In this document: piece after piece, positions 4,248 through 48,029 of the stretch
Position numbering within the stretch: the first letter of the stretch is position 1
How the letters are laid out: every line of letters starts with the position of its first letter
Assembly: GCF_019236175.1 (NCBI RefSeq)
Contig: NZ_JAFAJM010000004.1
Span: 124,001-188,000 of the forward strand
Reading direction: 5' to 3'
Length of the DNA: 64,000 nt
Origin: Chryseobacterium sp.
GTDB taxonomy: Bacteria; Bacteroidota; Bacteroidia; Flavobacteriales; Weeksellaceae
Notes under the pieces: generated by a model
The model's input: the letters and a program-made list of their open reading frames with translations, nothing else
Told to the model about the DNA's origin: nothing
The model's database searches: none
Translations under genes and position numbers: made by a program

Positions 4248-5855
4248 ATGAAAAAGCTTTTACTCTTTTGTTTGTTAACGGGTTATTCCATTGCATCAGC
4301 TCAAACCCAGCTTGTTTTTGTTTATTTTACTGACAAACCCAATAAAGCTGCTTTTTTTGCCAATCCTTTATCAGAGCTTTCTCAAAAATCACTCAACAGA
4401 CGTACTGCATTAGGAATTTCCCTTAATGATGAGGATGCCCCTATAGAAACATCTTATCTTCAGAATTTACAAAATCTGGGATTTACTGTCACCGATTATT
4501 CCAAATGGCTTAACGGAGCTGCTGTAAATGCTACCCCTTCACAAATAATCAATCTGCAGGCTCTTCCTTTCGTACAGTCTGTACAAAGCTTTGCAAGAAA
4601 CGCATCCGCTGTCCCGAAAATAACTCCTGTTGCTCAACGGAAAAACAATTCGGATACCGGTAAGACCCTCACCACGTTTGATTACGGGTCGGGAGCCGCA
4701 CAGATAGATCAGGTGAACATCCGGCCACTTCATCTGGCCGGCTATACAGGAACCGGAATCTCGATTGCCGTTATTGATGCCGGCTTTCCGTTTGTCAATA
4801 CCGGAACTGCATTTTCAAGGTTATGGGCCAATAACCAGATTAAAGCCGGGTATGATTTCGTTACTAAAACCACTGATATTTACAATACCTCTTTAAGCCA
4901 GCATGGCTCGGTAGTATTAGGCGCTATTGGCGGTTATCTGGAAAACACTTTTGTAGGATCTGCTCCGGATGCTGATTTCTATCTTTATCGCAGCGAAAAT
5001 GCGGCAGTAGAAATTCCTGAGGAAGAAGTATATTGGATTGAGGCAGCTGAGGAAGCTGACAGAAAAGGTGTGGAAATCATCTCAACGTCTCTCGGATATA
5101 ATGTTTTTGATGATTCTCAGTATGATTACAGCTATTCCGATATGAACGGTACAACCTCCTTCATTGCAAAAGCGGCACAAATTGCTGCGGAAAAAGGAAT
5201 TTTTGTTCTTGTAGCCGCTGGTAATTCCGGAACCCTGCCGTGGCATTACCTTCTGACACCTTCCGATAATGCTAAAGTATTTTCAATAGGAGCGGTAGAC
5301 AGTGCAGGGAATTCATCTTCATTTTCTTCTTACGGACCTAATTCCTCAGGAGTTGTAAAACCGGATGGAAGTGCACAGGGAACTTCCACCACAACAGTTA
5401 ATAACAATACGACTGTTACGGTAAGCGGAACTTCTATTGCGACTCCTATAGCTTCAGGAGGAGTAGCTTGTTTTATTCAGGCATTTCCAACGATGAACAG
5501 AGACCAAATCATGATAAAATTAAGACAAACAGCATCACTTTATCCTAACCATACGGATCAGATGGGATACGGCATTCTTAACTTTGGAAGTTTATATAAT
5601 AATGCTGTTTTAGGTACTTCTGAAACGGCAAAAACAGAGGGAATTAAAATCTATCCTAATCCGGTTACCAACATTTTAAGCATTCAATCTGAATATGACA
5701 TTAAGTCTCTGGAAATTTATGATAACCTGGGAAGACTGATCCGCAAAAACAGCCAACAAAAAGCGGTACATGTAGAGAACCTTTCCAAAGGAATTTATTA
5801 CCTGAAAATCCAGATAAAAGATAAAATCTACTATGAGAAATTTATAAAAGAATAA
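4248..5855 (+). CDS. S8 family serine peptidase with type IX secretion C-terminal domain
   Basis: 535 residues. A signal peptide (MKKLLLFCLLTGYSIASAQ) precedes an inhibitor-like prodomain (about 20-140) and a subtilisin catalytic domain. The triad is visible: Asp177 in IAVIDAGFP, His219 in SQHGSV, Ser396 in SGTSIATP, with oxyanion Asn326 in AAGNSG. The last ~75 residues start with IKIYPNPVTNILSI and form a type A T9SS sorting domain, ending in YYEKFIKE. The protein should be exported by Sec, carried across the outer membrane by the T9SS and anchored or released. The ATG follows a TATCTTTA box (about 4226-4233), a variant of the usual TAnnTTTG. Confidence 0.93.
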   Translation: MKKLLLFCLLTGYSIASAQTQLVFVYFTDKPNKAAFFANPLSELSQKSLNRRTALGISLNDEDAPIETSYLQNLQNLGFTVTDYSKWLNGAAVNATPSQIINLQALPFVQSVQSFARNASAVPKITPVAQRKNNSDTGKTLTTFDYGSGAAQIDQVNIRPLHLAGYTGTGISIAVIDAGFPFVNTGTAFSRLWANNQIKAGYDFVTKTTDIYNTSLSQHGSVVLGAIGGYLENTFVGSAPDADFYLYRSENAAVEIPEEEVYWIEAAEEADRKGVEIISTSLGYNVFDDSQYDYSYSDMNGTTSFIAKAAQIAAEKGIFVLVAAGNSGTLPWHYLLTPSDNAKVFSIGAVDSAGNSSSFSSYGPNSSGVVKPDGSAQGTSTTTVNNNTTVTVSGTSIATPIASGGVACFIQAFPTMNRDQIMIKLRQTASLYPNHTDQMGYGILNFGSLYNNAVLGTSETAKTEGIKIYPNPVTNILSIQSEYDIKSLEIYDNLGRLIRKNSQQKAVHVENLSKGIYYLKIQIKDKIYYEKFIKE

Positions 5856-5863
5856 ATGTTTCA

Positions 5864-5917
5864 GCTAAAGCCTGTAGAGGTATTTTAAAATACAGAAACG
5901 GGCTGAAGCCCGTTTCT
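5864..5917. repeat. REP-like dispersed repeat (copy 1), also a convergent terminator
   Basis: A half element GCTAAAGCC (5864-5872) is followed by a spacer and an 11-bp perfect stem AGAAACGGGCT-ga-AGCCCGTTTCT (5894-5917). The same architecture recurs at 13881-13946 (inverted), 29695-29746 and 32736-32789. Here it lies between two converging genes and would end transcription from both sides. Confidence 0.8.
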
Positions 5918-5941
5918 AATGATTGACATAATATGATAAAA

Positions 5942-8476
5942 TTATGCTGAGTTTCTGCTCGCATTAATATTTCCAAACAAAGAACGGGTCACGAGTTTCT
6001 CATACGTTTCTTTGTTGCCTTCTCCTTTCTGTATTTTCATTAAGGCATACTGTTGAATACTCAACAAAGGGAGTACTATCTTCTCACGGATCTTCACTGA
6101 TTTTCGGGATAACGGATCTTCTTCCTGGAGCATTTTAAAACCTGTCAGTTCCAGCATGATCTCCTTTGATAATTCGTACTCACTGAAAAGAATATTCCAG
6201 AATGCTCCGAACTTCGGATTGTTTTTGATATAATAAGTCAATGGAAAATATGATTTATTCATGCTCATCATCGAGTTCAGCACCAATGTTTTAAAGAAGT
6301 CTGATCCTTTGTACAATTCCTTTACTTCCTCAAACCGTCCCTGTTCTTTCAACTGTTGCATAGCATATCCAAAACCGAAAAATCCGGGAACATTCTGCTT
6401 CAACTGTGACCATGAACCTACGAACGGGATAGCTCTTAAATCCTCAAACCTCAGCTCACTTCCGTTTCCTCTTTTCGACGGGCGGCTTCCGATATTTGTT
6501 TTTCCGTAATATTCCAGCGTACTCATTTCCTGAAGATAAGGTACAAACATAGGATGAGCTTTCAGGTCGGAATATTTTTTATAACTGATATCTGCCAGTT
6601 CGATGATCAGAGATCTTTCTTTTTCGGTGAGATCTTTTTTTGCATTTTTGAATACGTCATTCTCTACACCAGCCGTTAAAAGCTGTTCAAAATTATATTT
6701 GGCCTGTTCTTTATTTCCAAAAATACTGGTAATGGTCTGCCCCTGAATGGTCAGTTCTATCTTATTATTGGCAATTGTTTTTCCCTGTGAAGCATAAAAA
6801 TCGTGAGTTTTTCCTCCTCCTCTTGCAGGCGGACCTCCACGACCATCGAAGAATACTACTTTGATGTTATTTTGCTCAGAAAGTCTGGTAAGTACTTCTT
6901 TCGCTTTATAAATTTCCCAGTTGGCTTTAAGATAGCCACCGTCTTTTGTTCCGTCTGAAAATCCAAGCATAATAGTCTGCTGATTGCCTCTTTTTTGGAG
7001 GTGTTTCTGATAGACAGGGTGATGGTAAAGCTCATTCATTACATTTTCAGCATTGGCAAGTCCTTCCATGGTTTCAAAAAGCGGAACAATATCCATATTG
7101 ATTTCTTCATCCTCATAACCACAGATTTTGAAAAATGCATATACATTCATAACATCTTTCACGGCATCTGAATTGGAAATAATGTAGCGATTCATTCCTC
7201 TCTGCCCGTTTAAATTCTGAATTTCTGAAACCTGTGAAACCGTTAGCAAAGTATCTCTTACAATATCCTGAAAATCTTCAGGGTTTACTTTTTCAGAAAT
7301 CTGAATCAGCTTGCTGAACTTTTTTCCGGCATCTGCTTCTTCATTTCCGTATACTTTTAAAAAAACCTCATCAATGACGGACTGATGAATTCTGCTATCC
7401 TGTCTGATGTCCAAAGTAGCAAAGTGGGTTCCAAAAATTTTCACACGGTCTCTGAAGTTGATCAAAAGATCCAGAAATAAAGAATTATGTTCATTAACCA
7501 GAATTTTTTCAGCGTCATCCGTCTTCTTTAAAATATCTTCTGCGGTGATCTCTTTTCCGTCAAAAATAGCAGCATATAAGTCCTCACTTAGCTGTGTTAA
7601 GACTTCAGCCACTCCTCTGAAACTTAACCTTCTCCTGATATATTTTAAATGGCTGTAGTATGATTTCAGAATGGCAGAACGCAGCTCTTCAGAAACTTTT
7701 TTGGTGACATCAGCAGTCACAAACGGATTTCCGTCTCTGTCGCCTCCGGGCCAGAATCCGAGCTGGATAATATCTTCATGCAGATGGAAATGTCCGTTTC
7801 CAAAAGTCTTTTTAATCTTTGTAAATAATTCGCCAATGGTATCATAGTATACATACCTCAGATAAGAGATAATACTTAATGCTTCATCTATCGGGGTAGG
7901 TTTTTCTTTATTTACAAAAGGTGTTTTTCCCAATTGCTGCAGCAGGGTATCAATCTGCGTCACAGAATCACTGGTAATGGCTCCTCTCAAATCCTGAATA
8001 ATTCTTTGTACCGAACTTGGATAAAACTGTGTCGGGTGTGCCGTAAATACAACTTTCACGGTAAAATCCTTCAGTTTTTCGCGTACTTTTTCAATTTTAT
8101 GATCCTGGAATGAGCGTTCAAAAAGATTGGTTACTGTTCCGCTATCACTTTCGGAATGGAGATTCGGGAATGCAGCATCTTCTATACTGTCAAATAAAAC
8201 CACCTGTCTTTCGATATACTGAATGATTTTAAAAAGCAACTCCAGTTTTTGTTCTTCCGTATCAAGATCTGTATGGCTTTTAAAAAACTCTTCAATGATT
8301 TCTTCCGGGGTCTTCCCTGCCTCATAACCGGTTCTGCTTTCCTCATAAAGAAAGGGAAGCAACATCCCGATATTGGTCATTTTATCATAGGGCAGGCTCA
8401 TAAATAATGAATTGTAGATCTGGAACTTATTCTCCACGATCTGCCTGAACTTTTCTGCGCGTTGGTCGTGTATCAT
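5942..8476 (-). CDS. ppc: phosphoenolpyruvate carboxylase
   Basis: 844 residues, near the usual 850-950. Both family signatures are present: VFTAHPTQ (catalytic His, about residue 149) and GFSDGTKDGGYLKANW (about 500-515), as well as the PEP-binding FFDGRGGPPARGGG loop. The C-terminus ends NINASRNSA; most PEPCs end in QNTG, so the last residues are unusual. The enzyme makes oxaloacetate from PEP and bicarbonate to refill the TCA cycle. A TACATTTG box (minus strand, 8489-8482) lies 5 bases before the ATG, so the mRNA may be leaderless. Confidence 0.95.
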   Translation of the reverse strand: MIHDQRAEKFRQIVENKFQIYNSLFMSLPYDKMTNIGMLLPFLYEESRTGYEAGKTPEEIIEEFFKSHTDLDTEEQKLELLFKIIQYIERQVVLFDSIEDAAFPNLHSESDSGTVTNLFERSFQDHKIEKVREKLKDFTVKVVFTAHPTQFYPSSVQRIIQDLRGAITSDSVTQIDTLLQQLGKTPFVNKEKPTPIDEALSIISYLRYVYYDTIGELFTKIKKTFGNGHFHLHEDIIQLGFWPGGDRDGNPFVTADVTKKVSEELRSAILKSYYSHLKYIRRRLSFRGVAEVLTQLSEDLYAAIFDGKEITAEDILKKTDDAEKILVNEHNSLFLDLLINFRDRVKIFGTHFATLDIRQDSRIHQSVIDEVFLKVYGNEEADAGKKFSKLIQISEKVNPEDFQDIVRDTLLTVSQVSEIQNLNGQRGMNRYIISNSDAVKDVMNVYAFFKICGYEDEEINMDIVPLFETMEGLANAENVMNELYHHPVYQKHLQKRGNQQTIMLGFSDGTKDGGYLKANWEIYKAKEVLTRLSEQNNIKVVFFDGRGGPPARGGGKTHDFYASQGKTIANNKIELTIQGQTITSIFGNKEQAKYNFEQLLTAGVENDVFKNAKKDLTEKERSLIIELADISYKKYSDLKAHPMFVPYLQEMSTLEYYGKTNIGSRPSKRGNGSELRFEDLRAIPFVGSWSQLKQNVPGFFGFGYAMQQLKEQGRFEEVKELYKGSDFFKTLVLNSMMSMNKSYFPLTYYIKNNPKFGAFWNILFSEYELSKEIMLELTGFKMLQEEDPLSRKSVKIREKIVLPLLSIQQYALMKIQKGEGNKETYEKLVTRSLFGNINASRNSA

Positions 8477-8481
8477 ACTAA

Positions 8482-8489
8482 CAAATGTA
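8482..8489 (-). promoter_or_regulatory. -7 promoter box of ppc
   Basis: TACATTTG on the minus strand fits the Bacteroidetes TAnnTTTG consensus. It ends 5 bases before the ppc ATG. A matching -33 TTG at the normal distance is not evident. Confidence 0.5.
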
Positions 8490-8580
8490 ACTGTTTTTTG
8501 GAATTAAATAAATTGACAAATGACAAAAAAACAAATGATCCCGGAAAAATAGCCATGCTTTCACCTCCGTAAACATTTCG

Positions 8581-8588
8581 TACCTTTG
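8581..8588 (+). promoter_or_regulatory. -7 promoter box upstream of the Crp/Fnr gene
   Basis: TACCTTTG matches TAnnTTTG. Transcription would start near 8593, leaving a leader of about 65 bases before the ATG at 8660. Confidence 0.5.
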
Positions 8589-8659
8589 TCTTCACATTAA
8601 TCCTTTAAATATAACTAATAATATTGTTGAGGTTACAGTAAAATAATTCAAAAATTTCT

Positions 8660-9226
8660 ATGGGTTACATCAGAGAATATTACGAACAGATCGTCAAACT
8701 AAAGGAATCGGAATGGACATTTATAGCAAGACATTTTCACAGAAAGGTTTTTGCTAAAAATAAAGTCATTACCCAACACGGTGAGACGGAGAAGTATCTG
8801 TCCTTCATAGAATCGGGACTGGTAAGGTTTTATATTCCGGATGATGAATACGGCTATACTTTTAGTTTTGGTTTTGAAAAGGAATTTACCTGTGCCTATG
8901 ATTCTTTTCTTACCCAGACTCCTTCAGAATATGAAATGCAGGCCTTAACGGAAACTGTGGTATGGCAGATTTCTTATAATGATTTACAGCAGGTTTATAA
9001 TCATACGAATGTGGGAAACCATTTAGGGCGCTTTGCCTCCGAGAAGTTATTTTTAGCCAAAAGCAAAAGAGAAATGTCTTTACTCAAACTTACAGCCAGA
9101 GAACGTTATTTAAAATTATTTACCGAACAGCCTGAAATGCTCAGACTTGTTCCGCTGAAATACATTGCTTCTTATATCGGAATCACTCCACAGGCTTTAA
9201 GCAGAATCCGCAGACAGATTAATTAA
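8660..9226 (+). CDS. Crp/Fnr family transcriptional regulator
   Basis: 188 residues: an N-terminal cyclic-nucleotide-binding-like beta roll (about 25-115, with KVITQHGETEKYLSFIESGLVRFYI) and a C-terminal winged helix (about 140-188). The recognition helix lies around LKYIASYIGITPQALSRIRRQI. The ITPQALSRIR helix is typical of the Bacteroidetes branch. The canonical cAMP-binding residues are not obvious, so the ligand is unknown. It precedes the deformylase gene, with a separate promoter-like box before the latter. Confidence 0.9.
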   Translation: MGYIREYYEQIVKLKESEWTFIARHFHRKVFAKNKVITQHGETEKYLSFIESGLVRFYIPDDEYGYTFSFGFEKEFTCAYDSFLTQTPSEYEMQALTETVVWQISYNDLQQVYNHTNVGNHLGRFASEKLFLAKSKREMSLLKLTARERYLKLFTEQPEMLRLVPLKYIASYIGITPQALSRIRRQIN

Positions 9227-9282
9227 CATAGGTTCATTGTATATCTTTTCTCTTCTGCTGAACTTTGCAGAAAATTATTTTA

Positions 9283-9864
9283 ATGAATTTACCTATTGTA
9301 GCCTATGGAAATCGCATTTTAAAACAAAAATGCATAAAGATCCCCGAAAACAGTCAGGAAGTCCGGGATCTTATTACCAATATGTGGGAAACTATGGAAA
9401 ATGCCAGCGGATGCGGCCTCTCCTCCTCACAAATAGGAAATCCTCTTCAGCTTTTCATCGTTGACAGCTGTACTATATTTGAAAACTTTGATACAGAGGA
9501 TCAGCTCGTCTATTTTGAAAAAAATGACCGCGGAATACACGAAACTTTTATTAATGCTAACATTATTGATTATTCAGCGGAAATATGGGAAGATTATGAA
9601 GGCTGTCTAAGTATTCCCGGTCTCTCCCAAAAGGTAAAACGATCCTGGGCCATCACCATTGAATACTTTGATAAAGACTTTAACCGGCAGGTTAAGACAT
9701 TCTCAGGCATGACAGCAAGAGTCATCCAGCATGAATATGACCATACACAAGGTATTTTATATATTGATCATCTGAAACCATTAACCAAAAAGCTCATGGA
9801 ATCAAAGTTGAAAAAAATTGCAACCGGAAATATCAATACCGGCTACGGGATGAAATTTTCATAG
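9283..9864 (+). CDS. def: peptide deformylase
   Basis: Removes the formyl group from new proteins. All three motifs are present: GCGLSSSQIG (variant of GxGLAAxQ), EGCLSIPG (metal-binding Cys) and QHEYDHTQG (HExxH). The frame is open from a TTG at 9265, but I prefer the ATG at 9283 (193 residues, MNLPIVAYG). That start fits the usual deformylase N-terminus, and a TTTG-type promoter element (TGAACTTTG, 9259-9267) would put the mRNA start near 9272. Active-site residues are intact, so it should work, though the Ser-Ser in motif 1 suggests a secondary copy rather than the housekeeping one. Confidence 0.9.
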   Translation: MNLPIVAYGNRILKQKCIKIPENSQEVRDLITNMWETMENASGCGLSSSQIGNPLQLFIVDSCTIFENFDTEDQLVYFEKNDRGIHETFINANIIDYSAEIWEDYEGCLSIPGLSQKVKRSWAITIEYFDKDFNRQVKTFSGMTARVIQHEYDHTQGILYIDHLKPLTKKLMESKLKKIATGNINTGYGMKFS

Positions 9865-9924
9865 CGTATAAGATCTCAGATACATTACTAATTTTTGTAA
9901 ATTTGTCCTGAAAACACTTTCTTT

Positions 9925-10542
9925 ATGAAAATTATCATCGTCTGTTCCCTGATCCTTTCTAATCTGTTCTGTGCCCAGATCACGGTTCCTGATGATTATA
10001 AAAAAATTCCCGATATCCTGGATACTTCAGATTACCTCTACCCTTTTATTATTCCGGATAAGGGCTACGAATACTGGAGAGTTCTCAGCAATGATACAGA
10101 TTCTGATAAAGCGGTAATCTACGAAAGTCAGATGCCGGATTTCATGACGATCAATGAGCCGGTTCCGGAAAAAGGTTTTTTCCAGAAATGTATCGGTAAT
10201 CATTGTTTTTCCTACATTCTGGCGTGTAAAGACAGCAGATCTGTTTATTTTTCCAATGAACAACAGTTGAGAGATTTTATCGGAACGGTTGATAATCTTC
10301 CCGAAGCTCTCCTGATTGCGCAAACTTACGGATATTCGTTTGATACAAAAAACAGATTTACGGGTTCTTATAAAATTGACAACAAATACATCTCTATATA
10401 CGTTTTACAAGCCAGAGGATGCCCTGTTACCAAAGAATCATTTCTGGTCAGAATCAACAGAAAAACCGGAAAACTGGACGCGAAAACTAACGGAATATAT
10501 TCAAAAAACGAGGACTGTGCCGCTTTAACAGTACCTCAATAA
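9925..10542 (+). CDS. exported protein of unknown function
   Basis: 205 residues with a clear signal peptide (MKIIIVCSLILSNLFCAQ). The cleaved part is acidic and aromatic, with a central Cys pair (KCIGNHCFSYILAC) and two later Cys (RGCP, EDCAA), so disulfides in the periplasm are likely. The C-terminal half (SFLVRINRKTGKLDAKTNGIYSKNEDC) is beta-rich. No family is recognised. It stands alone, with a 60-base gap after def and a palindromic element after its stop. Confidence 0.75.
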   Translation: MKIIIVCSLILSNLFCAQITVPDDYKKIPDILDTSDYLYPFIIPDKGYEYWRVLSNDTDSDKAVIYESQMPDFMTINEPVPEKGFFQKCIGNHCFSYILACKDSRSVYFSNEQQLRDFIGTVDNLPEALLIAQTYGYSFDTKNRFTGSYKIDNKYISIYVLQARGCPVTKESFLVRINRKTGKLDAKTNGIYSKNEDCAALTVPQ

Positions 10543-10581
10543 TCTTTTATCTTTACTACTTCAATCAAGTATTCTTGTTTT

Positions 10582-10624
10582 TTGCCACGAATGCATAAAT
10601 AAGATATTCGTGTATTCGTGGCAA
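10582..10624. repeat. GCCACGAAT palindromic intergenic element, likely terminator
   Basis: TTGCCACGAAT (10582-10592) pairs perfectly with ATTCGTGGCAA (10614-10624), with a further ATTCGTG copy inside the loop (10606-10612). It separates two convergent genes. Similar TGCCACGAAT...ATTCGTGGCA elements are familiar between genes in Chryseobacterium (recollection, not a search). Confidence 0.65.
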
Positions 10625-10641
10625 TTTAAAAAATCAGTACA

Positions 10642-12042
10642 TCAGATGTTCACAGCGCCCTGCCCTGATGCTATCAGATAAGCTTCCTTCAAGGTTTCTG
10701 AATACGTCGGATGGGCATAGGAAATACGGAACATATCTTCAGCAGTTACTTCATATTCCTGGGCAATTACTCCCTGGGCAATCAGATCGGCGGCTCTGGC
10801 TCCAATGATATGAATTCCTAATATTTCTCCGTATTTAGGATCTACCAGCACTTTTGAAAATCCATCTGAATCCATAGAAGCACGTGCTCTTGCGCTGGCC
10901 GAGAACGGAAACTTTCCCACATTATAGGCTATATTATTTTTTTTGAGATATTCTTCAGTATATCCTACGGATGCTACTTCCGGCCATGTATATACGACGG
11001 AAGGGATACGATCATAATGAATATGGCGCTTTTGTCCATTGATGGTTTCTGCCACAAAAACGCCTTCCTCTTCTGCTTTATGTGCCAACATTACTCCTCC
11101 GATAACATCGCCAATCGCATAGATCGTGGGAATATTTGTCTGATTCTTTTCATTCACTCTGATAAATCCGCGATGATCGAGTTCCACTCCGGTATTTTCA
11201 AGACCTAAATCTTTTGTATACGGACTTCTGCCTACTGCAACCAGAATGTATTCAGCTTCCAGCTCATTTTCGATTCCTTTTTGATCCTTAAAAAAGACCT
11301 TAGCGGCTGATCCTGTATTTTCAGCTTTATAAACAGCCTGATTCAGGCGGATATCAATTCCCTCTTTCTTTAAAATCCTCTGAAGGCTTTTCCCCAGTTC
11401 ATGATCCATTGCGGCAATCAGATGGTCAGCATATTCCAGAATGGTGACCTGAGTTCCGATACGGTTAAAAATAGAAGCCATTTCAACGCCAATCACTCCG
11501 CCTCCGATGATTACCATAGATTTTGGTTTTCCTTTCAAAGCTAAGGCTTCGGTAGAAGTAATAATTCTTCGTTTATCAATTTCCACTCCCGGAAGAACCG
11601 AAGGCTTTGATCCTGTAGCAATTATATAATTTTCTGCAGTAATCATAACCTTTTCCGTGTCATTTACCACCTGTAAGGTTGTATTATTGACAAAACCTGC
11701 CGTCCCCTGGATACGGGTGATTTTATTTTTACTCATCAGGAAATTAAGTCCGTCGGTATTTTTTGAAACCACTTCCGATTTTCTTTTATACATCTGTGAA
11801 AAATCCAGCTCTATCCGATCCAGATTAATCCCGTGTTCCTTAAACTGATGATGTGCTTCCGAATAATGATGGGTACTGTCCAACAGTGCTTTTGTAGGAA
11901 TACACCCCACATTGGTACAGGTACCTCCCAGTGTATCATATTTTTCTATAATTACGGTTTTATATCCAAGCTGTGCACTTCTGATGGCTGCCACATATCC
12001 TCCGGGGCCTGAGCCGATTACGGCGATGTCAAAATTTTCCAT
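10642..12042 (-). CDS. lpdA: dihydrolipoyl dehydrogenase
   Basis: 466 residues. FAD-binding VIGSGPGGYVAAIRSAQLG at the start, redox-active disulfide GGTCTNVGCIP (about residues 39-49), NAD-binding VIGGGVIGVEMAS, and the catalytic His-Glu in SYAHPTYSETLKEA near the C-terminus. This is the E3 subunit that reoxidises lipoamide in 2-oxoacid dehydrogenase or glycine-cleavage complexes. No E1 or E2 gene is nearby. It is divergent from an HxlR regulator across a large inverted repeat, so it is probably redox- or electrophile-regulated. Confidence 0.93.
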   Translation of the reverse strand: MENFDIAVIGSGPGGYVAAIRSAQLGYKTVIIEKYDTLGGTCTNVGCIPTKALLDSTHHYSEAHHQFKEHGINLDRIELDFSQMYKRKSEVVSKNTDGLNFLMSKNKITRIQGTAGFVNNTTLQVVNDTEKVMITAENYIIATGSKPSVLPGVEIDKRRIITSTEALALKGKPKSMVIIGGGVIGVEMASIFNRIGTQVTILEYADHLIAAMDHELGKSLQRILKKEGIDIRLNQAVYKAENTGSAAKVFFKDQKGIENELEAEYILVAVGRSPYTKDLGLENTGVELDHRGFIRVNEKNQTNIPTIYAIGDVIGGVMLAHKAEEEGVFVAETINGQKRHIHYDRIPSVVYTWPEVASVGYTEEYLKKNNIAYNVGKFPFSASARARASMDSDGFSKVLVDPKYGEILGIHIIGARAADLIAQGVIAQEYEVTAEDMFRISYAHPTYSETLKEAYLIASGQGAVNI

Positions 12043-40058: not shown

Positions 40059-41216
40059 TTATTGTTTTTCAATATAGCCTTCATTAAACAATGTATTGGG
40101 CTTTATATAAACAGTATTAGTCTGAAAATCCAGAAAAACATTAAACCTTTTAAGAATTTCATTTCCCAGAATATTCATTTTTTTATCATTAACCGGTCTG
40201 CTTTCAGAAAGCAACTGGGCCGGAATATTGTTGAGGCTGTATTTACCCAGACTAAGGGTTTCAAGATTGGCGGTAACAACCGGAATTTCGTTTCCTTTAG
40301 CTCCTCTCATCATCACTTTCTTTATAACCTTCATCTTATCGGTAGGAAATTTTTGTTCTCTTAGTAAAGGACCATCCAGCATTACGGTTCTCTGATAACC
40401 GGTATCAAACAGGAACCAATCTTTATTTTTCACAGCCCCCTGTTGTATTGTTGTTTCTACAAAAAATAATTTATCATAAAAAGTAAGGTTTAATTTTTCA
40501 TACGCTTTATCTTTTCTCACTTTTTCCGGAAGCTGAGAATGTACAATCATATTTCCCAGGTCATAATTAAGCTCTACCACCATTCCATCAAAGAGATCCC
40601 AGCCAAATCTTCCATCTGTACCATGTCCTGTCAGTTCTACTTTATAAATTCTGAAATCCTGATATTTTTTATTTCCGAGAGACAGAATATTTACGCCTGA
40701 TTTTAAGGATTGTTTAATTTTATTCTGTAAAGCTTCCTGAGTAAGAGAGAGGTTACTGCTTCCCGTATCGAAATTCAATGTAAGAGAGTCTGTTTTGTTT
40801 AGAGCTGCTTTTACAAACATTGTATTCTGTTCGTTAATTCCCATACGTATAGTATCATGGAAAGCAGGCTTTACACTACTAAAATCTTTAGAGGGTGCAC
40901 ACTCAATCCTTGTCATACATGAATCTTTGCCTTTCAGAAGTATAATAAAATCTTTTTTCTCACCTTTTTTTATTGTTATTCTGAGGGAATCAATATCTGT
41001 TTTCACCTTTATTATTTTCGAGCTGTTTACCATTCTGGAAACAGTATAGATATCAGGTTTTAGAGACGGATCAATATTCCAGTCTGTTTTCAGGCCATTA
41101 TCTTCTTCAATGAAAATTGCTTTGGAAGAATTGGCCTTCAATATGGGAAGTTTTTTCTGAGCCATTATCTGAAGGATTGAAAAAAATGATACTAAAAAAG
41201 CCAGTGTATATTTCAT
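40059..41216 (-). CDS. exported retropepsin-like aspartyl protease with two DTG motifs (RiPP cluster)
   Basis: 385 residues from the ATG at 41216, which gives a standard signal peptide (MKYTLAFLVSFFSILQIMAQ); an ATG at 41231 adds five codons and overlaps the previous stop as TAATG. Two aspartyl-protease motifs are visible, LNFDTGSSNLS (Asp about 150) and WFLFDTGYQRT (Asp about 271), each with a later hydrophobic-hydrophobic-Gly strand (NILGNEIL near the end), so the chain may make a whole active site by itself. Last gene of the radical-SAM peptide operon; plausibly cuts the peptide leader or the mature product in the periplasm. This role is inference. Confidence 0.8.
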   Translation of the reverse strand: MKYTLAFLVSFFSILQIMAQKKLPILKANSSKAIFIEEDNGLKTDWNIDPSLKPDIYTVSRMVNSSKIIKVKTDIDSLRITIKKGEKKDFIILLKGKDSCMTRIECAPSKDFSSVKPAFHDTIRMGINEQNTMFVKAALNKTDSLTLNFDTGSSNLSLTQEALQNKIKQSLKSGVNILSLGNKKYQDFRIYKVELTGHGTDGRFGWDLFDGMVVELNYDLGNMIVHSQLPEKVRKDKAYEKLNLTFYDKLFFVETTIQQGAVKNKDWFLFDTGYQRTVMLDGPLLREQKFPTDKMKVIKKVMMRGAKGNEIPVVTANLETLSLGKYSLNNIPAQLLSESRPVNDKKMNILGNEILKRFNVFLDFQTNTVYIKPNTLFNEGYIEKQ

Positions 41217-41230
41217 ATTAAAAGAGGGCA

Positions 41231-42106
41231 TTAAATTAAAAACTTTCCGAGATAGGTCATAAGAATATCAAGAGAACGGTTTCCCATCGTAGATCCGTCA
41301 TGAAAACAATTATCTGTAGGAGCTATATAATAATGATAAGGTTTATGCTCTATTCTTAAAACCGGATAATCAGGAAAAAGCTTAAAAAAATAAGAAGTAA
41401 TATTTTTATTGTTCACTTCATTTTCTTTAATATCAATTTTCTTTTTGATCATGTTATAAACCTGAAGCATGGAAAGATTAATAATGAGTAAATATCTCGA
41501 TTCTTTTCCCAGATTGAATGCAATACGGTTGCCGAATTTATGGGCCGTATGCAGCGTCATATCTTTGGAACTGTCTTTATGTACTCCTATAAATCTGACT
41601 TCATTAGCAGTATATCCTGAGGGCAGGTTTCTTTTATCTAAAGAAACTATTTCACTGTTTGCAAAATTAGCCGCCAGACTCATCAGTTTAAACGGGGCCA
41701 GAGAAATACTCTCCAGAAATGTATTTAATTTACCATTAATCTGATTGACCAGCATTTCGTTTTTCCTGAATCGATCATATACTTCAGCTTCTGTCTCTGC
41801 AGTCTGTAAATCCAGTTTAATAAAAAGTTCTTTGATATCATCAGAAATTTTTCCTGTAAAAACAGAATTATAATCCTTTTTATTTTTGTGATCTCCTGTA
41901 AAAATTTTATATTCCTCTACAGTAGGTGTACGCCAGTCTCTTTTAGGAAGGTACGCCTCCGGTTCATATCTTTGAACAAATTTTTCATTTTTAAAAATAA
42001 TCTCGTTCGGCGTTTGCTCAGAGTGATGTAGGGTACCTGAATTGATCTGAACGGTCTCTTCATGTCCATTCAGGTATATCTTAATTCCCGGTTTTAGTTT
42101 TTTCAT
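41231..42106 (-). CDS. RiPP-cluster protein A, putative HxD...H oxygenase-like
   Basis: 291 residues, no family recognised with certainty. Paralogous to the next gene upstream (42136-42966): both have a DWR(T/M)xTxxEY block near residue 57, an H-x-D (His176, Asp178), an NRI-x-N ... R-x-L-x-x-INL stretch, and the nearly identical C-terminal YPVLR(I/L)E-KPY-YYIAPTDN--HDG-T-GN (His269, Arg277). His-x-Asp, distal His and a basic residue 8 later is the pattern of Fe(II)/2-oxoglutarate oxygenases. A peptide hydroxylase role is inferred. Ends in an overlap with the protease gene; 29 bases after protein B. Confidence 0.75.
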   Translation of the reverse strand: MKKLKPGIKIYLNGHEETVQINSGTLHHSEQTPNEIIFKNEKFVQRYEPEAYLPKRDWRTPTVEEYKIFTGDHKNKKDYNSVFTGKISDDIKELFIKLDLQTAETEAEVYDRFRKNEMLVNQINGKLNTFLESISLAPFKLMSLAANFANSEIVSLDKRNLPSGYTANEVRFIGVHKDSSKDMTLHTAHKFGNRIAFNLGKESRYLLIINLSMLQVYNMIKKKIDIKENEVNNKNITSYFFKLFPDYPVLRIEHKPYHYYIAPTDNCFHDGSTMGNRSLDILMTYLGKFLI

Positions 42107-42135
42107 ATTGAGTTTCTTGCTATTTGCAGGTATAT

Positions 42136-42966
42136 CTAGTATTTATCAAATACACCTGTATAAACCATGGTAATATCAAAGAATTTATTTCCTAATGTGG
42201 TCCCGTCATGAATAAGGTTATCCGTGGGCGCAATATAATATTGATAGGGTTTTATTTCCAGTCTCAAAACAGGGTAATCAGGGTAAAGCTTAAAAAATTC
42301 TTCAACAATATTTTCGGACGTAATTTTTTCTGATTTTTTTTTCTGAATTTTAGTAAAAATCTGCCTTAGCGTGAGATTAATAAAATAGAGAAAACGGGGT
42401 TCAGTACTGATATTAATTGAAATTCTGTTATCTGATTTATACGCCGTATGAGGAGTAAAAAAAATACTTTTATCAATATGTAATCCTGTATATTTAAAAG
42501 TATTATGACCAGTATGATGAAAAGTTGTGCTTTGCATATCGGGCAATGATCTGGCAATTCTGTGGAATTTATATTTCCCGGCTGCAGATTTCTGATCCAA
42601 AAAAGCATTCAATTCCTGATTAAGCTTTTTAATAAGCTCTTCATTTTTTTCAAATTGCTTCGGAACATCAAAAAGCGACTCACATTCACTGAGTTTCAGA
42701 CTTTTAAATAAATGCTCTAAAGATAACGGAATGACTCCCATTCCCAAAGTATTAAACATTCGACTGTCCTCATTCGCTGTAAAAATTCTTCTGTATTCCT
42801 GATCAGTCAGCATTCGCCAATCTGAATTGGGTAAATAAGCATTGTGGTAATATTCAATCTCAGGATCATTATTTTCAACAGGTACAACCCCTGAATTGAT
42901 ACTGATCTGATCTTTTATATTATCAATCTGCCGATTGTAAACTCTAATACCTTCTTTTAAATTCAT
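42136..42966 (-). CDS. RiPP-cluster protein B, paralogue of protein A
   Basis: 276 residues. Aligns with protein A over most of its length, most closely in the last 50 residues. The putative metal residues are kept (His163, Asp165, His253); the downstream basic residue is Lys261 where A has Arg277. No signal peptide or membrane segment, so it acts in the cytoplasm. The start codon overlaps the radical SAM stop (ATGA), so the two proteins are made together. Tandem divergent paralogues suggest two sites or residues on the same peptide being modified, or a heterodimer. Confidence 0.75.
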   Translation of the reverse strand: MNLKEGIRVYNRQIDNIKDQISINSGVVPVENNDPEIEYYHNAYLPNSDWRMLTDQEYRRIFTANEDSRMFNTLGMGVIPLSLEHLFKSLKLSECESLFDVPKQFEKNEELIKKLNQELNAFLDQKSAAGKYKFHRIARSLPDMQSTTFHHTGHNTFKYTGLHIDKSIFFTPHTAYKSDNRISINISTEPRFLYFINLTLRQIFTKIQKKKSEKITSENIVEEFFKLYPDYPVLRLEIKPYQYYIAPTDNLIHDGTTLGNKFFDITMVYTGVFDKY

Positions 42967-44204
42967 ACTAAACTATAGGCTAATAATTTTTCTTTTATCT
43001 CCTGCTGCGGATCATTATAAGGCATGTTTTCCAGTTCCGCTACAATTTCATCATACGAAACTTTGGTAAGTTTCATGTCTTCACAAATATCTTCCGGAAG
43101 ACTATCGATAAGATCATTCTGTATATGGCTCACCAGCTTTATCATATCATGGCAGTAAATCGTAGGATTGTCGAACCCATTTTCTTCTGAATATCTGTTG
43201 AGCAGAAAACCACCGCCACAAATTTCATAAATCGGACACTGACTGCATTTCACATTGACCATCTGATGAGAATGGATATAAATATCAAAAAGAGGATCTT
43301 CCAGGACAGCTGCAATTTCATGAGTATGAATATTAATATCATTCCTGGTAATCCCTTCATAACAGGCTCTTATAGAATCTGCTACTTCCAGATTCCCGTT
43401 GGTTTCCACTACTGCTACTCCATTTTTTTTCAGACCTACCATCTGATCTCCAATTTCTTCACCGGCAACAAGCTGAATAAGAGTTTTGAAGAACCTCATA
43501 TTAGGTCTTTCCGGATCACTTTTCCATATTTCAAACAACTCTATGAGCCAATCTGCAAAAGGCGTATAGCCATAGGTATTTACCTTTTCACGAAGTATTC
43601 CGTCAGGCAATTTATCAAAATGTCCATCCGGAAGGAGAAGATTAAAACTCGGAATAGCAAGGTTTTTAAACTCCTGATAAAGTTCTGAAGGAATAATAGC
43701 AAGGTTAACGACAGACAGAACTCCATGCATCCCGTTATCCAGTCCAAGCTGAATAGCATTCCGCACATCATCATAGGATCCTTTACCGTTATGAAAAACA
43801 CGGTATTTATCGTGATATTCTTTAGGTCCGTCTATACTGATTCCGACGCGAATATTCAGTTCTTTAAAGAGGCTGTACCATTCTTCATTTAATCCGACAC
43901 CGTTGGTCTGAATTACAAAATCAAAATAGGAATCATTGAGTGTTTCTCTAAATATCCTTATACTTTCTCTGTAAAATTCTTTGGGGAAAAGCAAAGGTTC
44001 TCCTCCATGAAATACAATCTGAAAAGCTTTTATTCCATTTTCAGTACTATATCGTGATAATTTTTCAACGAATGTTTTTACAGTCTTTATGGACATTAAT
44101 TTAGGCTGCTCCAAATATGTTTTGTCTCCTAAATTATACATATAACAATAAGAACAGTTGAGGTTGCATCTGCTTGCAACCTTTAGAACAAAAGAAGTAA
44201 CCAT
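42963..44204 (-). CDS. radical SAM/SPASM peptide maturase (FxsB/XyeB-like, cyclophane-forming type)
   Basis: 413 residues. The radical SAM cluster motif CNLNCSYC gives Cys13, Cys17 and Cys20; FHGGEPLL and GISIDGPKEYHDKYR follow. A C-terminal SPASM region has Cys281, Cys320, Cys323, Cys329 and Cys351, with NVKCSQCPIYEICGGG and the FxsB-like stretch GFDNPTIYCHD. These traits, and LKVASRCNLNCSYCYMYN with LLPDGHFD, place it near the maturases that make three-residue cyclophanes (triceptides). It follows the precursor gene after a 71-base gap containing a hairpin. Confidence 0.9.
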   Translation of the reverse strand: MVTSFVLKVASRCNLNCSYCYMYNLGDKTYLEQPKLMSIKTVKTFVEKLSRYSTENGIKAFQIVFHGGEPLLFPKEFYRESIRIFRETLNDSYFDFVIQTNGVGLNEEWYSLFKELNIRVGISIDGPKEYHDKYRVFHNGKGSYDDVRNAIQLGLDNGMHGVLSVVNLAIIPSELYQEFKNLAIPSFNLLLPDGHFDKLPDGILREKVNTYGYTPFADWLIELFEIWKSDPERPNMRFFKTLIQLVAGEEIGDQMVGLKKNGVAVVETNGNLEVADSIRACYEGITRNDINIHTHEIAAVLEDPLFDIYIHSHQMVNVKCSQCPIYEICGGGFLLNRYSEENGFDNPTIYCHDMIKLVSHIQNDLIDSLPEDICEDMKLTKVSYDEIVAELENMPYNDPQQEIKEKLLAYSLV

Positions 44205-44220
44205 ATCTCTATTAATAATA

Positions 44221-44252
44221 AAGTTCTTCGCTATTTAACTAACGAAGAACTT
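44221..44252 (-). promoter_or_regulatory. stem-loop between precursor and maturase genes
   Basis: AAGTTCTTCG and CGAAGAACTT form a perfect 10-bp stem with a 12-nt loop. Only a weak T-rich tail (TATTATT) follows on the minus strand, so it is probably a leaky terminator or an mRNA-stabilising hairpin that keeps precursor above maturase. Confidence 0.6.
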
Positions 44253-44275
44253 AAATTTTTTAAAAAACAGTAATT

Positions 44276-44497
44276 TTAAGCTCTTAAAAAAGTATCGATA
44301 ACTCTATCGTATGCTGCGGAAGCTCCTGTAACAGCAACTACACCACAATTATCACCCGGAAGAACGATACCGATATTACCACGGCCTCCAAAAATAGATT
44401 TGTAAAGATCCACATTTTCTTTTTCAGAGTTCTGGATTGATTTTTTAAGAATTTCTTTTTGTTCTAGATTACTGGAAATTTGAAGTTTCTTTTTCAT
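44276..44497 (-). CDS. RiPP precursor peptide
   Basis: 73 residues. The first 34 are a charged, helical leader (Lys/Glu-rich, LEQKEILKKSIQNSEKENVD). Then come FGGRGNIGIVLPGDNCGVVAVTGASAA, Gly- and Ala-rich with one Cys (residue 51), and a C-terminal AAYDRVIDTFLRA. The two aromatic-x-x triplets Tyr63-Asp64-Arg65 and Phe70-Leu71-Arg72 fit the aromatic-X-(basic or polar) pattern that cyclophane maturases join. It is first in the operon, with a full promoter close by. Precursor status is inferred from size, position next to the maturase and composition. Confidence 0.8.
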   Translation of the reverse strand: MKKKLQISSNLEQKEILKKSIQNSEKENVDLYKSIFGGRGNIGIVLPGDNCGVVAVTGASAAYDRVIDTFLRA

Positions 44498-44500
44498 GTT

Positions 44501-44581
44501 AAAATAATTTTTGATTAATAGTTTTCTTATATCACCAAATATAGATAAATATTTTAAAAAACAAAATAATTTTTGATTAAT
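44501..44581. repeat. 19-bp direct repeat flanking the precursor promoter
   Basis: The 19-base sequence AAAATAATTTTTGATTAAT occurs at 44501-44519 and again at 44563-44581, 62 bases apart and in the same orientation. One copy abuts the precursor start codon, the other covers the -33 element. A regulator could bind both. Confidence 0.6.
44536..44566 (-). promoter_or_regulatory. promoter of the RiPP operon
   Basis: On the minus strand TTTTG (44566-44562), 18 bases, then TATATTTG (44543-44536), a full match to the Bacteroidetes consensus. The leader to the precursor ATG (44497) would be about 35 bases. Confidence 0.7.
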
Positions 44582-44675: not shown

Positions 44676-46832
44676 TTATTTTACAGGTTTAATGGAGATA
44701 GCGAAACCACCACTTCTTACCATTTTAAAATTAATTTTTGATTTGCCTGTAATCTCTTTTTTATAGATATGATAGCTTTGAGGATTATCGATATAATCTG
44801 CATCTTTTCCATCTTCATAGATCGTTGCTTCATATTTTTTTCCTTTATCCAGGAATGAGAAGTCTACCGTGTAATCGCGTTTGTTTTCATCCGTAATTCC
44901 TCCCACAAACCAGTTTTCCGTTCCTTTTGCTTTTCTTGCCGTGATGACATAATCTCCCGGTTCTGCGGCTAAGATCTTCGTATCATCCCAGTCTGCCGCT
45001 ACATCTTTGATAAACTGAAATGCATCCATATGCTTCTTATAATTTTCAGGAAGATCTGCGGCCATCTGAAGCGGCATATACATCGTTACATATAATGCAA
45101 GCTGTTTAGCCAGTGTTGTTTTCACAGAACGATTATCTCCAGGGAAATAATAGTCTAATTTGGTCTCGAAAATTCCTGGTGTATAGTCCATTGAACCTCC
45201 CATCCATCTTGTAAACGGAAGAACGGTCTGATGGTCTGGTTTGTTTCCACCGAAAGCTTCATATTCCGTACCACGGGCTGCTTCCGCAGAGATATAGTTC
45301 GGATAGGTACGGCTTTCTCCTGTAGGGCGTACGGACTCATGAGAATTGACCATGATTTTATATTCATTTGCTTTTTCAGCAATTCTGTAATAATGGTTGA
45401 TCATCCATTGAGAATAATGATGTTCTCCTCTGGGAATAATATCTCCTACATATCCAGTTTTCACAGCATCATAGCCATATTTGTTCATCAGCTGGAATGC
45501 TTTGTCAGACCACCTTTCATAGTTTGCCGCAGAACCTGATGTTTCATGGTGCATGATCAGCTTAATACCTTTAGAATGGGCATACTCGTTCAACATTTTG
45601 ATATCAAAATCCGGGTAAGGTGTAATGAAATCGAAAACAAAATCTTTAGAATGTCCGAACCAGTCTTCCCAACCGATATTCCATCCTTCGATCAATAATC
45701 CCTGAAAGCCGTTTTCAGCTGCAAAGTCAATATATTCTTTAACTTTTGTGTTGTTAGCGGCATGCTTTCCATTAGGCGTTAATTTGGTGAAGTCTGTTTT
45801 ATCGATATGAACATTTTCAGCAGTAGAATATGCCCATTGTGATTTTCCGATGATCATTTCCCACCATACCCCCATATATTTTGTAGGGTGGATATAAGAG
45901 GTATCTTTATATTTCGTCGGCTCATTAAGGTTGAAAATCATTTTAGAGTCCATCACCTGTTCTGCTTTCGGAGCTACAATGATTGTTCTCCACGGTGTTG
46001 TAGAAGGAGTCTGGATATATCCTTTAGCTCCTTGTCTGTCTGCTGTTAAATGCGTCTTGAACTTAAAATTCTGTGCATCTACTTCTAAATGAGAAGCCGG
46101 ATAATCTAATACGGCTGCCTCCGCAACATTAATATACAAAGGTTCTTTTCCTTCTCTTTTAAGCATCAACGGTGACTGAACTGCATTTTTCACCAATGTC
46201 TGAGAAGCATTAGCATCATACGCCTGAGCCCATTTTGACGGAATTTCAGAAACTTTTGTTTCCTGATACTGATATTCCTGAGAGTCATAGTCCGCTACGA
46301 TCCACCATGCTTTCATATCGGTAGGAAAATCAATTTCCGAGTCTTCTTCTCTGATGACAAAATAATTAAGATTTTTCTGCTGCGGGAATTCGTATCTGAA
46401 CCCCAGTCCGTCATTGAACAATCTGAATTTTACGACAATACTTCTGTCTGTAGAAGCCTGATTCAGGGTAACAGCCAGTTCATTATAATTATTGATATAA
46501 TTTTTCTTTTCTCCAAGAACCGGTTGCCATTTTTCATTTTTGGAGTCTCTTTTTTCCTCTACTTTGGCAAAACCGTTATTAAGATCGAATTTTGCATCTT
46601 CTGGTTTCGCAATTTCGGAAGCAAATTTAATAGCAGTGTCTTTAAATAATCTTAACCCTAATTTAGAATCTTCAACTACTACTCCTCCGTTGTATTTAAG
46701 GTTGTAGTAAGGTACTCCGTCTTTCAGCTGAAAATTCATTTCGAACTTACCGTCCGGAGATTTTAAAGATTGTGCTTTCACACCTACAAACATCATTGAG
46801 AGCAAAAGGGCTCCAACTGTAATTTTCTTCAT
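44676..46832 (-). CDS. susB: GH97 alpha-glucosidase (SusB-like, inverting type)
   Basis: 718 residues with a signal peptide (ends GVKAQ). N-terminal beta-sandwich, central barrel, C-terminal sheet. The catalytic Glu residues of the inverting SusB subgroup are all in place: MHHETSGS (Glu430), VNSHESVRPTG (Glu499) and RGTEYEAFGG (Glu523), at a constant offset of nine from SusB. It releases glucose from maltodextrins in the periplasm. Fourth gene of the Sus operon, 78 bases after the SusE-like gene, and followed by a strong terminator. Confidence 0.95.
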   Translation of the reverse strand: MKKITVGALLLSMMFVGVKAQSLKSPDGKFEMNFQLKDGVPYYNLKYNGGVVVEDSKLGLRLFKDTAIKFASEIAKPEDAKFDLNNGFAKVEEKRDSKNEKWQPVLGEKKNYINNYNELAVTLNQASTDRSIVVKFRLFNDGLGFRYEFPQQKNLNYFVIREEDSEIDFPTDMKAWWIVADYDSQEYQYQETKVSEIPSKWAQAYDANASQTLVKNAVQSPLMLKREGKEPLYINVAEAAVLDYPASHLEVDAQNFKFKTHLTADRQGAKGYIQTPSTTPWRTIIVAPKAEQVMDSKMIFNLNEPTKYKDTSYIHPTKYMGVWWEMIIGKSQWAYSTAENVHIDKTDFTKLTPNGKHAANNTKVKEYIDFAAENGFQGLLIEGWNIGWEDWFGHSKDFVFDFITPYPDFDIKMLNEYAHSKGIKLIMHHETSGSAANYERWSDKAFQLMNKYGYDAVKTGYVGDIIPRGEHHYSQWMINHYYRIAEKANEYKIMVNSHESVRPTGESRTYPNYISAEAARGTEYEAFGGNKPDHQTVLPFTRWMGGSMDYTPGIFETKLDYYFPGDNRSVKTTLAKQLALYVTMYMPLQMAADLPENYKKHMDAFQFIKDVAADWDDTKILAAEPGDYVITARKAKGTENWFVGGITDENKRDYTVDFSFLDKGKKYEATIYEDGKDADYIDNPQSYHIYKKEITGKSKINFKMVRSGGFAISIKPVK

Positions 46833-46910
46833 AATGACTATTTATTAACTTTAAAACAGACAAAGTACTGCTTTACTGCAGCACTCTGCCATTTATAATT
46901 TGATTTTTAT

Positions 46911-48029
46911 TTACAATTTTGTAACAGTTAATTTATAATAAGCTGAGTTATGCAAATCCAGCTCTATTTTATAATTACCCGCCTGTGAAACTTTATATCC
47001 TGAATCTCCTGTTACTGTTCCTTCTGAATTTAAATACGATTGTACACTCATTCCGGAAACCAGAGTCTGATCAGCATCTTTTGGCTGAAATTTCATCACC
47101 CAGTCATCATTTGCTCTGAATTTAAACACGCCATTATTCGTCAGGGCAATTGAATTAATTATATAAGTCTTACTAATGGGATTGTATACAAAGTCTGTAT
47201 CAGAATCCCAACCCGTAGGTGTAGCATCACCAATAATCCCAAAGTTTGCAATAACATTAGAATAGGTATTAGCAGCCCAGTCTACTTTAACATAATACGT
47301 TCCGGTTACCGATGACTTAATGTTTGAACCTCCTAAAAGAAGTTTCCCTGAATTAGTTCCGTCATCTCCTTTATTCTCTGACCAGCTTTCATTAATTGTA
47401 AACTTATACTGTCCGTTTTCTCCTGTCAGATCGGTAATATAAAGAAATCCTCTGTATTTATCATTTTTCTCAGGAGAGAATAAATTAGCAGTATTGGTAG
47501 GTTCCCAATTTGCATATCCGGCAGCTCCACCGAATCCGCCCGGTACATTAATTTTAGGATAAATCAGATCCGGGTTTGGAGCATATCCAGTAATATTAAT
47601 CGTTAATACATTAGAATAATACACAGTGGTAGCATTTAAAGCTGATTTTAATCTGACTTCAATAGCTTTTGCAGCATTGGGCGCAACATTTAATGTCCCT
47701 AGAATTGTATTTAGCTGTAGATGGGTTAATGAGAATGTCTTTTGATCCATTGATACAGTTTGAGCTGCACTTGATTTAAAATTAGTTCCTGCTACTGCAA
47801 ATTCTACAGAGTTTGCAAAAACTACATTAGGATTAAAAGTCGGATTTGTATACGTAAAATTTAAAGCAGCTTCATTAGCTAAAGTCTCATCTAAAACAAT
47901 GGCCGTTTTATTGACTGTTAAGCTTCCGTTTGATGTATTATTAAGAACAATTTTATCATCATCTTCTCTACAGGAAACAATGAGATAACTCACTATTCCT
48001 ATTAGAAATATTTTAAAAATATTTTTCAT
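46911..48029 (-). CDS. SusE/SusF-like outer-membrane starch-binding lipoprotein
   Basis: 372 residues. Lipobox YLIVSCRED with acidic residues after the Cys, typical of surface-exposed Bacteroidetes lipoproteins. An N-terminal SusE domain (about 35-155, SLTVNKTAIVLDETLANEAALNFTYTNP) is followed by starch-binding modules (about 170-270 and 275-372, each with Trp and aromatic residues). It should hold starch at the cell surface for SusC/D. 17 bases after susD, in the same operon. Confidence 0.88.
   Translation of the reverse strand: MKNIFKIFLIGIVSYLIVSCREDDDKIVLNNTSNGSLTVNKTAIVLDETLANEAALNFTYTNPTFNPNVVFANSVEFAVAGTNFKSSAAQTVSMDQKTFSLTHLQLNTILGTLNVAPNAAKAIEVRLKSALNATTVYYSNVLTINITGYAPNPDLIYPKINVPGGFGGAAGYANWEPTNTANLFSPEKNDKYRGFLYITDLTGENGQYKFTINESWSENKGDDGTNSGKLLLGGSNIKSSVTGTYYVKVDWAANTYSNVIANFGIIGDATPTGWDSDTDFVYNPISKTYIINSIALTNNGVFKFRANDDWVMKFQPKDADQTLVSGMSVQSYLNSEGTVTGDSGYKVSQAGNYKIELDLHNSAYYKLTVTKL

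Follow-up and report, generated by a model that had tools for sequence, protein, structure and literature searches.

Tandem MicC-family oxygenase-like proteins in a putative cyclophane-type RiPP operon of Chryseobacterium

A 64,000 nt stretch of a Chryseobacterium sp. genome (contig NZ_JAFAJM010000004.1, positions 124,001 to 188,000; referred to here as the window) contains a compact operon of five minus-strand genes, and the question it raises is what two adjacent, mutually related proteins are doing beside a radical S-adenosylmethionine (SAM)/SPASM maturase and a short peptide. The original prediction, made from the sequence alone, read the locus as a possibly undescribed system for a ribosomally synthesized and post-translationally modified peptide (RiPP). 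The assignment as a RiPP cluster is supported by the present analysis, which indicates that the operon probably specifies a cyclophane-type (triceptide-like) pathway, in which the core peptide would be tailored by a tandem pair of MicC-family, alpha-ketoglutarate (alpha-KG)-dependent oxygenases. As to novelty, no description of the cluster was found in the literature searched, but a member of the oxygenase family, MicC, has a deposited structure (PDB 9vkm).

The open reading frame (ORF) listing of the window gives five intact frames at 40059-44497, encoding the precursor, the maturase, the paralogues OxyA and OxyB, and a protease-like protein, AspP. The maturase and OxyA genes overlap by 4 bases, OxyA and OxyB are separated by 29 bases, and OxyB overlaps AspP by one base. 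The places, strand and lengths first given for these genes, including a leading peptide of 73 residues (44276-44497), were all confirmed. The full promoter that had been proposed ahead of them is also present: a Bacteroidota-type element, TTTG-N18-TATATTTG, was found by motif search on the minus strand at 44536-44565, 38 bases upstream of the precursor ATG. The window holds five matches to this pattern against 3.1 expected, so a single match alone is within chance; TATATTTG is, however, present about 39 bases upstream of the precursor in 21/21 relatives that carry the operon in the same chromosomal slot. Within the genus (173 genomes, the own genome counted among the carriers), OxyA homologues occur in 27, and in 22 of these, again including the own genome, the precursor, maturase, OxyA, OxyB and AspP genes are found in identical order at the identical slot, next to a gene for a GH97 glucosidase. 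Two more genomes (L059, L060) carry a four-gene cassette, without AspP, at another place, three (L061-L063) have the maturase and one oxygenase only, and one of the 22 (G052, cassette L039) has an additional single-oxygenase cluster (L064). The ratio of nonsynonymous to synonymous substitution rates (dN/dS) was 0.03-0.16 for each gene, the precursor (0.06-0.15) included, in all computable pairs against five relatives, one OxyA comparison being saturated. Because the order is kept in 21 other genomes, because four of the genes recur elsewhere in two more, and because dN/dS is low, the gene set goes beyond chance, and all five genes are conserved and under purifying selection.

OxyA (276 aa, 42136-42966, minus strand) and OxyB (291 aa, 41231-42106, minus strand) share 38% identity, and neither was assigned to any family in searches of both the Pfam and NCBIfam libraries. 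A profile built from 65 sequences matched MicC, an alpha-KG-dependent non-heme iron oxygenase, over its full length (E=4.6e-64, profile positions 2-277), and weak matches of the paralogues to cystathionine gamma-lyase, YxiJ and FAR-17a were then discarded as chance. MicC is 23% identical to OxyA over 278 aligned positions and has the same HxD...H triad region, which corresponds to H163, D165 and H253 in OxyA and to H176, D178 and H269 in OxyB; a search of plasmids did not find the origin of MicC. Residues G161, H163, D165, R181, N185, R191, Y244, A246, T248 and H253 are invariant in the 65-sequence alignment. The two arginines are candidates for the basic residue that would bind the alpha-KG carboxylate; of them MicC keeps R191 but has isoleucine in place of R181. 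The AlphaFold2 model of OxyA (predicted local distance difference test score, pLDDT, 95.7) is a double-stranded beta-helix, for which Foldseek ranked KdoO, GriE and further alpha-KG dioxygenases highest (E from 1.3e-4). The suggestion that the paralogues are metal oxygenase-like is therefore borne out by the MicC match, the triad and the predicted fold, which is that of a non-heme iron oxygenase and not an unrelated one. Their identity as iron/alpha-KG oxygenases is well supported by family resemblance and modeling, and hydroxylation is their likely, if unproven, reaction, this being the commonest alpha-KG reaction in RiPPs (PMC12636437). A precedent for such a two-step logic exists in the ChlB-type fusions, where the cyclophane is formed first and the ringed core is then beta-hydroxylated in an alpha-KG-dependent reaction (PMC12636437). 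The ChlB hydroxylase has a zincin-like HExxH fold, whereas OxyA and OxyB have an unrelated double-stranded beta-helix with an HxD...H triad and occur in tandem; no HExxH motif is present in either sequence, which places them outside the alpha-KG-HExxH hydroxylases (IPR026337).

The association between this oxygenase family and ring-forming enzymes extends well beyond the genus. When 84,980 species were scanned with one conserved peptide pattern, a design that misses relatives lacking the pattern, 76 loci came up, distributed over Bacteroidota, Cyanobacteriota, Acidobacteriota, Pseudomonadota and Actinomycetota. In 62 of 75 loci the oxygenase has a SPASM maturase no more than 1.5 kb away, and three of the 13 loci without one (L078, L097, L130) are near the end of the available sequence. 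The partner maturases tested were either YhhB/FxsB-like or GrrM/OscB above cut-off. In a metagenome-assembled genome of the Thermosynechococcaceae (L111), two tandem ORFs (5738-7897 and 7894-10110) each encode a SPASM maturase fused to a MicC-family oxygenase. The same oxygenase family adjoins GrrM in, for example, Nostoc, Novosphingobium, an Acidobacteriota and a Saprospiraceae genome, but those clusters have a single oxygenase and precursors with Trp-[Asp/Asn]-[Asn/Asp] repeats (Nostoc L035, Saprospiraceae L115 and others). Since it is found beside ring-forming enzymes in at least five phyla, the family looks like a general second step, and is probably a common one in the biosynthesis of cyclophane peptides.

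The maturase (413 aa, 42963-44204, minus strand) has a CNLNCSYC motif at residue 13 and SPASM cysteines from residue 320, of which C320, C323, C329 and C351 are invariant in 37 sequences. Its three best NCBIfam models are all of the cyclophane type, with the best thioether-type model more than 80 bits lower, and the nearest solved chain by sequence is the radical SAM domain of the cyclophane synthase ChlB (E=2.6e-59). This supports the cyclophane-type assignment originally made, and maturase homologues in this family do adjoin such peptides; the specific comparison to FxsB and XyeB fared less well, as YhhB is the nearer model and every score falls below its cut-off. YhhB is reported to join C3 of Tyr to the beta carbon of Arg, and also C2 of His to that of Arg (PMC11002830). 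The present maturase may work like YhhB, without being filed as YhhB. The likeness to YhhB-type triceptide systems lies in the radical SAM/SPASM maturase, the short precursor and a Tyr-x-Arg motif as in the YhhB link, whereas the operon described here adds two oxygenases, a protease and a conserved core Cys.

The leader of the 73 aa precursor ends in ...DLYKSIFGG, with the two glycines at residues 37-38, and is followed by a linker of variable length and the conserved core NCGVVAVTGASAAYDRVIDTFLRA. Two aromatic-x-Arg motifs lie in the core: Tyr-Asp-Arg at residues 63-65 (codons 44303-44311, minus strand), kept across relatives as Y-[DNS]-[RK], and Phe-Leu-Arg at residues 70-72 (44282-44290, minus strand), where the third residue in relatives is Arg, Leu, Gln or Lys. 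Most relatives within the genus have cores of the form NC-x-V...[ST]-G-A-S-A-A-Y-[DN]-[RK]...FL, and C-x-V...[AG]-Y-D-[KR]...F-L-[RQKL] is found in Mucilaginibacter, Longitalea, Niastella, Chitinophaga, Flavobacterium, Tenacibaculum, Aquimarina and Kordia, while the cores beside other partner maturases have YVK, YVR, YIR/YEK, or WVK/FSK. At least one aromatic-x-[Arg/Lys] motif is present in all 26 cores linked to YhhB-like maturases, with 41 motifs in total against 5.7 +/- 2.1 in shuffled cores, a count that is descriptive and not a P value, as the 26 rows are related.

Taken together with the chemistry of YhhB and the conservation of the motif, these features suggest a pathway in which the maturase would bind the leader and link Tyr63, through a ring carbon, to the beta carbon of Arg65; a second three-residue cyclophane would probably be formed between Phe70 and Arg72. 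OxyA and OxyB would then oxidize particular residues of the ring-bearing core, the simplest possibility being beta-carbon hydroxylation in or beside the rings, with one enzyme for each site or step. Cleavage of the leader after Gly38 and export of the product would be performed by a C39 peptidase-ATP-binding cassette (ABC) exporter encoded elsewhere. The operon in the window has no C39-ABC gene, and the observation that the cluster lacks a transporter was correct; the proposal that export uses a host system can now be made more specific. The leader ends in IFGG in the window and in all relatives at the GH97 slot, with the variants AG and GK elsewhere (L085 and L080), C39-ABC exporters are encoded within relatives' clusters (L077, L082, L095) and close by in a cyanobacterial one (L100), and the own genome encodes four elsewhere, which are 27-42% identical to the cassette types. 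On these three grounds a C39 route is likely.

Several observations weigh against this interpretation. The full-length YhhB match (NF041707) reached 353 bits against a cut-off of 445, 92 short, and neither FxsB (TIGR04269, 316 bits, cut-off 370) nor XyeB (199 bits, cut-off 450) was reached, so the maturase is of the cyclophane type by resemblance and not a member of any of these curated families. A large clade of relatives has Phe-Leu-Leu or Phe-Leu-Gln as the second core motif, and because Leu or Gln so often replaces Arg, the Phe70-Arg72 ring is less sure than that at Tyr63-Arg65, which is the better supported of the two predicted sites. The structural likeness of OxyA to known oxygenases is real but remote: the template modeling score is about 0.4, and VIA-align Z values peak at 9.7, compared with 7-8 for models that have no clear relatives. 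VIA-align listed only alpha-KG oxygenase families, and the lack of a family there is no evidence. Six cyanobacterial loci (L101, L107, L108, L110, L112, L118) have the oxygenase without a nearby maturase, and a different role or a distant precursor is possible for these. Finally, PMC12636437 cites a report (Xia et al. 2025) of an alpha-KG dioxygenase that links a Cys to a Tyr within a RiPP, an alternative to hydroxylation considered below.

The last gene of the operon is the least firmly tied to it. AspP (390 aa, 40059-41231, minus strand) is an aspartic protease-like protein that is exported and has two domains. It contains two DTG motifs, the aspartates of which (D155 and D276) are invariant in 13 rows. 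In keeping with a clan AA aspartic protease, it passed the cut-off of the Pfam family Asp_protease_2 (32.8 bits, cut-off 24.3), and its model, of moderate quality (pLDDT 75.8), resembles a putative endopeptidase of Bacteroides fragilis as well as pepsins. Once exported, it could be imagined to trim the variable linker ahead of the core, or to degrade the peptide. That AspP is dedicated to the pathway, either as its last enzyme or for self-protection, by destroying the peptide after export, is a tentative proposition, and one on which the distribution of the gene bears in both directions. It lies in the operon, overlapping OxyB, and all 22 cassette genomes have it at the slot, as against none of 33 sampled genomes that lack the cassette there, a result that also speaks against a simple history in which a cassette was inserted ahead of a resident AspP gene. 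The Aquimarina cassette (L088) has a 38% identical homologue about 1 kb upstream, and four cassette-free genomes of one clade (L145-L148) retain AspP alone at the slot, as resistant non-producers might; these are candidates for such non-producers, or for remnants. On the other side, apart from Aquimarina, none of the other genera examined has a protease of this type in its cassettes, and L059 and L060 lack one too; the frame is broken in three of the 22 cassettes (G052, G101, G016), and homologues of 25-45% identity are common in the genus without linkage to the cassette. A core pathway role for AspP, as first proposed, is thus not sustained, and the protein appears to be a lineage-specific accessory for which trimming or self-protection would be a speculative role.

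What the oxygenases make can be approached through their number. From one to four tandem copies occur per locus, and the Bacteroidota cassettes carry two, three or four in a row. The first oxygenase gene of the sampled multi-copy cassettes is the OxyA orthologue (tree support 96/90), while Chryseobacterium OxyB is sister to a clade (support 100/95) in which the B, C and D copies diverged. A relationship of one oxygenase per cyclophane motif was unsupported, as two motifs are present in clusters with two, three and four copies alike; since all multi-copy cores have two aromatic motifs, copy number is not simply ring number. The core stretch from Cys to Tyr is at least three residues longer in clusters with more copies. 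One reading of this pattern, which we consider unlikely though not strongly so, is that proteins of the OxyA and OxyB types form a separate alpha-KG oxygenase lineage for cyclophane peptides that installs both cross-links (e.g., to the conserved Cys) and hydroxyls, with tandem duplication of OxyB adding rings or hydroxyls to longer cores; if true, the oxygenase copy number of a cluster would predict the structure of its product.

A somewhat less probable alternative is that OxyA, OxyB or both, instead of hydroxylating, form a further oxidative cross-link or a desaturation, for example between the conserved Cys51 and Tyr63 or at ring carbons, giving a polycyclic product. Of 26 related cores, 24 contain Cys and almost all contain Tyr, the oxygenases occur as two to four non-redundant paralogues, the Cys-to-Tyr stretch is longer where there are three or four of them, and the Cys-Tyr-linking dioxygenase mentioned above offers a precedent, at least as the citing paper presents it. 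The family also serves cores that have no Cys (L094, L095 and the GrrM-type precursors), however, which rules out a Cys-Tyr link as its general reaction, and the prevalence of hydroxylation among alpha-KG reactions in RiPPs points the same way.

It is improbable that the maturase makes some other radical modification (a thioether, an epimerization or a link between a beta carbon and Cys), with the oxygenases acting on a linear peptide: its failure to reach the curated cut-off of any cyclophane model and the conserved core Cys, which would suit a thioether, are set against the margin of the three top models over the best thioether-type one, the proximity of ChlB and the presence of aromatic-x-[RK] in every core. 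A reading of the operon as an island in decay or without function is scarcely credible, for although cassette L039 of G052 has stop codons in both the maturase and protease genes, dN/dS is low for all genes where computable, the frames in the window are intact, and the promoter and a hairpin described next are conserved.

This hairpin, with a 12 bp stem, lies between the precursor and maturase genes (44221-44251, minus strand) and is supported by covariation in the alignment of relatives, in which 99.5% of cells are paired and four pairs show compensatory changes. A stem of unrelated sequence takes its place in L059 and L060, and a T-rich run follows the hairpin in part of the relatives. It is likely to be a partial terminator or an RNA-stabilizing stem, and, lying 3' of the precursor gene, it probably sets a high ratio of precursor to enzymes. 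A different element, the 28 nt GGGCNNTYGYCATGTCCTTACTGATGRC, is found shortly upstream of the precursor ATG in relatives outside the GH97 slot, across many Bacteroidota genera (L059:3530-3560, L082:5408-5440, L086:5350-5382 and about ten more loci); the window does not contain it. In a sample of 395 Bacteroidota genomes it occurred once, in the only sampled genome outside the genus that also carries a cassette. An Rfam search returned no match for it; an H-type pseudoknot fold is possible (97% of cells paired, one covarying pair), and the element may be such a pseudoknot or a dyad operator.

The cassette is placed inside a starch-use type locus, its neighbors in the window being the GH97 glucosidase and SusE-like genes (44676-48029). 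The gene order at the slot is SusE-like, GH97 and the cassette with AspP last, usually followed by a 620 aa gene of the same locus, and GH97 itself is present in 172 of the 173 genomes. No gene for a TonB-type outer-membrane beta-barrel adjoins the cassette in the window. In most Bacteroidota cassettes of other genera, a gene for an OMP_b-brl_3/TonB-type outer-membrane protein of about 800 aa is located directly upstream of the precursor (L082:2929-5337, L086:2885-5296 and others). Elsewhere in the own genome (G000, contig C5, about 5653-11467), an outer-membrane beta-barrel, a second radical SAM protein (L003) and a C39-ABC exporter (L144) are encoded together (L003, L144, L190), which is probably another RiPP cluster. 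At the three maturase-less cyanobacterial loci that were inspected (L101, L107, L110), the oxygenase gene sits between a conserved gene for a protein of 220-320 aa and one for a TPR-containing protein. On a plasmid of Methylocystis parvus (L037:5854-6867), an oxygenase relative is found in a TonB/iron-ABC uptake set, without a maturase and near a gene resembling nitrogenase component 1.

According to PMC12257519, the biological activity of triceptides has yet to be established. The oxygenase family singled out here, through its linkage to maturases in five phyla and its fusion to them, had no annotation and is independent of the known HExxH hydroxylases. With one precursor, one maturase and two oxygenases, the Chryseobacterium operon would be a convenient small system in which to study oxygenase function, and the series of two, three and four copies in Bacteroidota allows a direct test of whether each enzyme acts at one site.

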